DNA of 64,000 nucleotides from Ornatilinea apprima (GTDB lineage: Bacteria > Chloroflexota > Anaerolineae > Anaerolineales > Anaerolineaceae): assembly GCF_001306115.1 (NCBI RefSeq), contig NZ_LGCL01000019.1, positions 124,001 through 188,000 of the forward strand. Reading direction: 5' to 3'. This document shows positions 24,273 to 24,498 of this stretch, one piece after another. How positions within the stretch are numbered: position 1 is the stretch's first letter; every line of letters starts with the position of its first letter. The translations under genes and the position numbers were made by a program. Below the pieces are notes generated by a model. That model did not search any database. It saw nothing but the letters and a program-made list of their open reading frames with translations, and was not told where the DNA came from.

Positions 24273-24305
24273 AAACAAAAAGGGGCTGTCCTGTTGGACA
24301 GCCCC
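24273..24305 (-). terminator. Attenuator terminator before the Cys/Met PLP-enzyme gene
   Basis: On the minus strand GGGGCTGTCC, loop AACA, GGACAGCCCC, then TTTTTGTTT: a 10-bp GC-rich hairpin with a U-tract, ending about 35 bases before the start codon of the PLP-enzyme gene and about 28 bases after the stop of the Met-rich leader ORF. The 5' arm can instead pair with GGACAGC at 24350-24356 inside the leader ORF, giving an antiterminator. Confidence 0.88.
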
Positions 24306-24333
24306 GCGTTTGCGTTTCCTCGTTATGGCAAAA

Positions 24334-24441
24334 TTATGCCTCTACGTGTGCTGTCCGTAAGGGTGCGCGGCGCATCATCATGACCATCATCATGGACATG
24401 GACATTGCGAACATCGCGAACAGCACAACAATCGAATTCAT
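24334..24441 (-). CDS. Methionine-rich leader peptide (35 aa)
   Basis: ATG 24441 to TAA 24334, 35 residues with ten Met: positions 1, 10, 13, 15, 17-19 and 21-23. The dense part reads MSMSMMMVMMM. GGAG lies 12 bases before the start codon, and a promoter lies about 30 bases further up. RNA segment 1 (24417-24427, codons 5-9) pairs over 11 bp with segment 2 (24347-24357, codons 28-32). Segment 2 can also pair over 7 bp with segment 3, the 5' arm of the terminator. This is the layout of a ribosome-mediated attenuator that senses charged Met-tRNA. A stall on the Met codons should favour readthrough, and normal translation to the stop should cover segment 2 and permit termination. Assigned by reading, not by homology. 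Confidence 0.82.
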   Translation of the reverse strand: MNSIVVLFAMFAMSMSMMMVMMMRRAPLRTAHVEA

Positions 24442-24469
24442 TCTGGTATTTTTCTCCGTATTTCGCTTG

Positions 24470-24498
24470 AGGATACCCGGTTTGACCGAGAAAGTCAA
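24470..24498 (-). promoter_or_regulatory. Promoter of the Met-rich leader/PLP-enzyme unit
   Basis: On the minus strand TTGACT (24498-24493), 17-base spacer, TATCCT (24475-24470). Expected transcription start is near 24463, giving a short untranslated region before the leader ATG at 24441. It sits in the gap after the gene ending at 24527, so the leader transcript begins independently. Confidence 0.7.

Follow-up and report, generated by a model that had tools for sequence, protein, structure and literature searches.

A putative Met-codon transcription attenuator before a cystathionine gamma-synthase gene in Ornatilinea apprima and other Anaerolineae

The leader and its gene in Ornatilinea apprima

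The window analysed in this study is a stretch of 64,000 nucleotides from Ornatilinea apprima (contig NZ_LGCL01000019.1, positions 124,001 to 188,000), which lies on contig C39 of the genome labelled G000. On its minus strand, a short ORF rich in Met codons and an intrinsic terminator, both readable directly from the DNA, precede the gene for a PLP enzyme, and the features of this locus, in window coordinates, are as follows.

24498-24470, minus strand: promoter-like site TTGACT-17-TATCCT; relatives have promoters with 9-12 of 12 matches at the matching place
24457-24454, minus strand: GGAG, a possible but weak Shine-Dalgarno site, 12 nt 5' of the leader ATG, which is long for such a site
24441-24334, minus strand: leader ORF of 35 codons, ten of them Met; Met run kept in 42 orthologous loci
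24427-24417, minus strand: segment 1, TGTGCTGTTCG, with an 11-bp pairing to segment 2 in the predicted fold
24357-24347, minus strand: segment 2, CGGACAGCACA, pairing with segment 1 or segment 3; covariation between families
24305-24296, minus strand: segment 3, the terminator 5' arm, of which GCTGTCC (24302-24296) pairs with segment 2
24291-24282, minus strand: segment 4, the terminator 3' arm
24281-24277, minus strand: terminator T run, TTTTT
24238-22997, minus strand: cystathionine gamma-synthase (CGS) of putative plant type, 413 aa, with Shine-Dalgarno site GGAGG

Of the solved structures, that of tobacco CGS comes closest to the PLP enzyme, scoring 394 bits where the best methionine gamma-lyase scores 297, and the enzyme carries the motif YRRT where tobacco CGS has YRKT and methionine gamma-lyases have YGCT with its catalytic Cys. 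Methionine gamma-lyase was considered as an identity and rejected, both on this motif and on a score of 369 bits against a cut-off of 549.7. As the enzyme passes no NCBIfam equivalog cut-off, its assignment as a CGS of plant type is only our reading of its sequence, and the substrate (O-phospho- or O-acyl-homoserine) is left unspecified.

The promoter-like site, with the -35 box TTGACT from 24498 and the -10 box TATCCT at 24475-24470 (spacer of 17 nt), is weak when taken alone, having 9 of 12 matches, with one such site found against an average of 0.3 in shuffles; clear promoters are present at the equivalent place in relatives. The leader ORF translates as MNSIVVLFAMFAMSMSMMMVMMMRRAPLRTAHVEA, with Met at positions 1, 10, 13, 15, 17, 18, 19, 21, 22 and 23, nine of which fall within codons 10-23. 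An earlier, sequence-only reading of this DNA had counted ten Met codons in the 35, seven of them in MSMSMMMVMMM plus the flanking codons; the total is right, whilst the count for the stretch was loose, as it holds eight. The coordinates which that reading gave for all elements were found to be correct when rechecked on the sequence, as were its pairing lengths (11 bp for 1:2, 7 bp for 2:3 and 10 bp for the terminator stem).

The pairing of segments 1 and 2 includes one G-U pair and reaches p = 0.004 against shuffles, and the alternative pairing joins GGACAGC of segment 2 (24356-24350) to GCTGTCC (24302-24296), with p = 0.06 against shuffles in the window alone. The terminator (24305-24282) reads GGGGCTGTCC-AACA-GGACAGCCCC and is followed by the T run. 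Only 2 nt separate the end of segment 1 from the second Met codon (codon 10); a ribosome at the first Met codons would therefore cover the segment, and one at the last would sit between segments 1 and 2; segment 2 starts 15 nt past the last Met codon. Neither the window leader nor the other leader loci put to Rfam matched any Rfam family, and at the window leader neither a SAM-I riboswitch (RF00162) aptamer nor a T-box was found by Rfam above the gathering threshold.

Met leaders and SAM-I riboswitches at orthologous genes

The window leader holds 7 Met in 10 codons at its densest, where 20,000 dinucleotide shuffles of this upstream region gave a maximum of 4. Five Met in ten codons did not occur in any of 40,500 dinucleotide shuffles (20,000 for the window locus and 20,500 over all loci, each of the 400 nt upstream of the gene). 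Among the upstream regions of about 150 CGS orthologues in the class, a script identified 42 orthologous loci with a Met-run leader, meaning a short ORF with at least 3, and mostly 5-7, Met in ten codons, and the Met-rich frame inferred from the window alone is thus kept in related genomes; the 113 other orthologue loci, mostly with SAM-I, have no more than 2 Met in 10 codons. The leaders belong to the family of O. apprima itself (f1), to f6, f8, f9, f12, f13 and f14 of the order, and to f36 elsewhere in the class. Peptides of different families agree in the Met run but in little besides.

When 400 genomes were searched with a leader-peptide profile, 18 were positive at E <= 0.001, each of them at the CGS locus only, although the profile misses the divergent leaders of f9, f12, f13 and most of f14. 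One extra match within the family, at a parB gene of genome G039 (E = 3e-4), was judged to be due to chance. In the genome of O. apprima itself, the pattern ATGATGN{0,6}ATGATG gave 18 matches, and apart from the CGS leader none of these represents a short Met-rich ORF with a terminator and a gene downstream; the next-best candidate, MMMGMM on contig C2, was rejected, as it has neither a terminator nor a methionine gene.

SAM-I riboswitches lie upstream of about 92 CGS orthologues (about 62 by motif pattern and 30 by Rfam), and no locus was found to have both a Met leader and SAM-I, all Met-leader loci having been searched by motif pattern and ten by Rfam. The remaining unassigned orthologues include contig ends and wrong-start cases. 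Since the orthologues without a leader mostly carry SAM-I, CGS is marked as a methionine-regulated biosynthetic gene. Outside the class (f82, f81), most CGS orthologues have SAM-I too. In four f82 loci (L220, L221, L222 and L223), only the first SAM-I bases are left (CTCATCCAGAGCGGTGAGG or similar), fused to a T run and start codon, which is apparently the remnant of a deleted riboswitch.

On a tree of 90 CGS proteins, four changes suffice for the leader and SAM-I labels, against a mean of 24 when shuffled, and each control type is accordingly old and has mostly been passed down with the gene. The tree cannot separate gain from loss; SAM-I is likely to be the older state at CGS, an inference from its wide occurrence outside the clade. 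Within the Met-leader clade of the tree, two f53 loci depart from the pattern, L059 having a SAM-I riboswitch and L057 having neither leader nor SAM-I, which we read as recent local exchange or transfer.

The genome of O. apprima does possess two SAM-I riboswitches, before metK and metH (G000:C14:62448-62572 and G000:C34:135241-135352). By inference, methionine control in this bacterium seems to be divided, with SAM read at metK and metH and Met-tRNA at CGS.

The leaders also vary in form. Tandem Met-leader ORFs, each with its own terminator, were observed at L042, L046 and L048 (all f9) and at L044 (f14), and L055 has a single leader with two terminators behind it, of which the second lies at 72 nt. 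Thr codons, too, are frequent in the f9 leaders (such as MHLLITTPMTTTTMMTTMGMCTRIQAASHQ), and the combination of Thr and Met codons could reflect joint sensing of both amino acids. A promoter could be recognised for 37 leaders, and in 22 of these only 6-11 nt separate the end of the -10 box from the ATG, which leaves no room for a leader Shine-Dalgarno site in many relatives and predicts a leaderless mRNA; this short spacing is seen in f13, f8 and part of f1 (e.g., L026, L104 and L010). The window leader, with 28 nt between -10 box and ATG, is of the other type.

Together, these observations may describe a clade of Anaerolineae CGS genes in which attenuators sensing Met-tRNA displaced an ancestral SAM-I riboswitch, leaving a methionine regulon split within one cell (SAM at metK and metH, Met-tRNA at CGS), with some lineages stacking two attenuators, one family combining Met with Thr codons so that both amino acids act jointly at the homoserine branch, and over half of the leaders predicted to be leaderless. 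The chances of this whole scenario being right are regarded as about even.

Conserved pairings, proposed mechanism and alternatives

In the 40 leaders analysed in detail, a terminator with its T run is always present, 17-46 nt past the leader stop. The codons past the Met run, which form segment 2, are complementary to the terminator 5' arm, or in f13 to the loop and the start of the 3' arm. Segment 2 starts at a median of 15 nt past the last Met codon (quartiles 13.75-16). As the footprint of a ribosome that holds the last Met codon in its A site should extend about 10 nt further, segment 2 would be the first RNA to emerge.

The f1 leaders diverge too far for their MAFFT alignment to yield a clean per-pair covariation table, and complementarity was therefore tested across families. 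The summed helix score of 2:3 is 928.5 for true partners, against 624.7 for cross-family partners (sd 17.9, maximum 685, 5000 draws). When each family was represented by a single locus, none of the sampled derangements in any draw scored as high as the true pairing. Singly, 29 of the 40 loci reach p <= 0.05 against shuffled segment 2. The paired sequences differ by family, as in GGTGTGGG:CCCACACC, TTGGGTGGTC:GGCCGCCCAA, GGCAATCTC:GAGATTGCC and GCTACCGGGGG:CCCCCGGTAG; even within f1, segments 2, 3 and 4 are GGACAGC, GCTGTCC and GGACAGC in the window and GGCAGC, GGCTGCC and GGCAGC in most other members. As judged from these sequences, the strength of the evidence for 2:3 lies in the comparison and not in the window alone.

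The least conserved pairing is 1:2, with p <= 0.05 in 14 of 40 loci and p <= 0.01 in five. This bears out a caveat of the sequence-only reading, that segment 1 lies 5' of most Met codons and would be left free by stalls at the last of them. Of the conditions under which that reading would fail, the loss of the Met-rich frame and of the alternative pairings in related genomes could be judged by computation, and both came out in its favour, the pairings in that 2:3 covaries with the terminator across families. The exclusive order of 1:2, 2:3 and 3:4 is recovered in predicted folds: with the leader free, the minimum-energy structure has 1:2 together with 3:4, and with a ribosome stalled at the last Met codon and segment 4 not yet made, the RNA in between forms 2:3 with a small nested hairpin. 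The predicted folds match both regulatory states.

From these features, it is considered highly probable that the leader acts as a ribosome-mediated transcription attenuator of CGS, with charged elongator Met-tRNA as its signal, the response to methionine being inferred in the absence of expression data. When Met-tRNA is plentiful, the ribosome would pass the Met codons and reach the stop, where it would cover segment 2, or segment 1 would capture segment 2 behind it; the 3:4 hairpin would then form and RNA polymerase would halt upstream of CGS. When methionine is short, the ribosome would stall within the Met run, covering or screening segment 1 and leaving segment 2 free just past its leading edge, so that 2:3 would form, the terminator would be blocked and CGS transcribed. 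Leader translation, stalling at Met codons, and termination and readthrough in the cell are likewise inferences. The manner in which termination is secured after the ribosome departs may vary between loci, since 1:2 is significant in only 14 of 40. In several relatives, about 21 nt lie between the end of segment 2 and the stop codon, and a ribosome at the stop would leave the segment uncovered.

What is expected of such an attenuator is a short ORF rich in the codon (its translation being inferred here), a terminator between this ORF and the gene, and a covarying 2:3 pairing exclusive with 3:4, all of which the locus has. That the downstream gene should make the sensed amino acid is also met, provided that the reading as plant-type CGS holds, and through the SAM-I-controlled orthologues. 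A further point against attenuation is that Met starvation should limit initiation of the leader as well, which would favour termination.

The window enzyme appears to be of plant type, and plant CGS1 is controlled by SAM-dependent translation arrest, which raises the alternative that the Met-rich peptide itself halts the ribosome from within the exit tunnel in response to free methionine or SAM, like CGS1 or tnaC. An arrest triggered by abundance would, however, antiterminate when methionine is plentiful, which is opposite to what a biosynthetic gene needs. Leaders also differ in their count of Met codons, from 3 to 10, and, unlike in arrest peptides, no residue but Met is conserved across families, making this explanation very improbable. 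That poor conservation tells equally against a small Met-rich membrane protein conserved for its own sake, with an ordinary terminator upstream of the gene and no sensing by ribosomes. Whilst the peptide of some families does have a hydrophobic N-terminal half followed by Arg, several are not hydrophobic, the leaders of f9, f12, f13 and f36 look unrelated, and even in the aligned set the mean column identity is 37%, with little in common outside the Met run. The codons past this run, moreover, track the terminator sequence, and the leader is swapped for SAM-I riboswitches, leaving hardly any support for the membrane protein. Leader ORFs can report general ribosome slowing, and the device could accordingly be imagined to register general translation stress in place of methionine, or to act on translation in place of transcription; the former sits poorly with the Met run being the one conserved codon feature, the latter with a terminator and T run in 40 of 40 leaders, and scarcely any weight is given to either. 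Attenuation in response to charged Met-tRNA remains the preferred explanation.

Relation to known systems

Leader-peptide attenuation is a textbook form of control for several amino acids, but for methionine, control had been attributed to SAM riboswitches, T-boxes or repressors. The trp, his, leu, thr, ilv and phe attenuators of Proteobacteria, with trpL as the model, share with the window leader a short ORF with a run of codons for the regulated amino acid, mutually exclusive segments 1-4, an intrinsic terminator, and a downstream biosynthetic gene for the same amino acid. The leaders described here differ in that methionine would be sensed, in Chloroflexota; the Met run is placed after segment 1 and before segment 2 and not within segment 1, the leaders are often predicted to be leaderless, and methionine has a single possible codon and is also needed for initiation. 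With only one codon, codon choice cannot tune the device.

The suggestion in the sequence-only reading that a Met-tRNA-sensing leader may be undescribed has to be softened, as a metL leader (MSTTSDRTPATEATTTPGARCMCRRMCAF) has been proposed before metNIQ in Streptomyces lividans, albeit with poor support (PMC8079986). It is likewise a short, leaderless ORF with Met codons before a methionine-related operon, but it has two internal Met codons only, no terminator was found there, the operon encodes a transporter and not CGS, and the proposal concerns one species, without covariation and with a peptide unrelated to the CGS leaders (PMC8079986). It is the only Met leader proposal found in the open-access literature, where no report of Met leaders in Chloroflexota was found either, and older subscription papers could hold others. 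Leader peptides beyond Proteobacteria and Actinobacteria have been described for histidine in Firmicutes only (PMC2965389), and no RNA elements were found for methionine operons of Actinobacteria (PMC1262725).

The SAM-I riboswitch (RF00162) controls the orthologous CGS in sister lineages, also with a terminator before the gene, but there SAM is bound by the RNA itself and a leader ORF is absent. The Met-specific T-box of Lactobacillales is similar in that charging of Met-tRNA is sensed at methionine genes, but there the tRNA binds the RNA directly and no leader peptide is involved; these T-boxes have expanded where S-boxes were lost (PMC3766115).

That Met leader and SAM-I replace each other at one and the same gene suggests that, in bacteria, a sensor of translation can take the place of a metabolite sensor, and it opens the testable question of why a cell would rely on SAM for metK and metH and on Met-tRNA for CGS. 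Methionine is an unusual amino acid for such a device, being needed to start the leader peptide and having a single codon. A new Rfam-type family could be built from covariation in the 42 leaders, which also offer a route to finding CGS control in uncultured Chloroflexota. As far as could be found, the mechanism is a known one; its use for methionine, its occurrence in this phylum, the one-for-one exchange with SAM-I and the existence of tandem forms are new.
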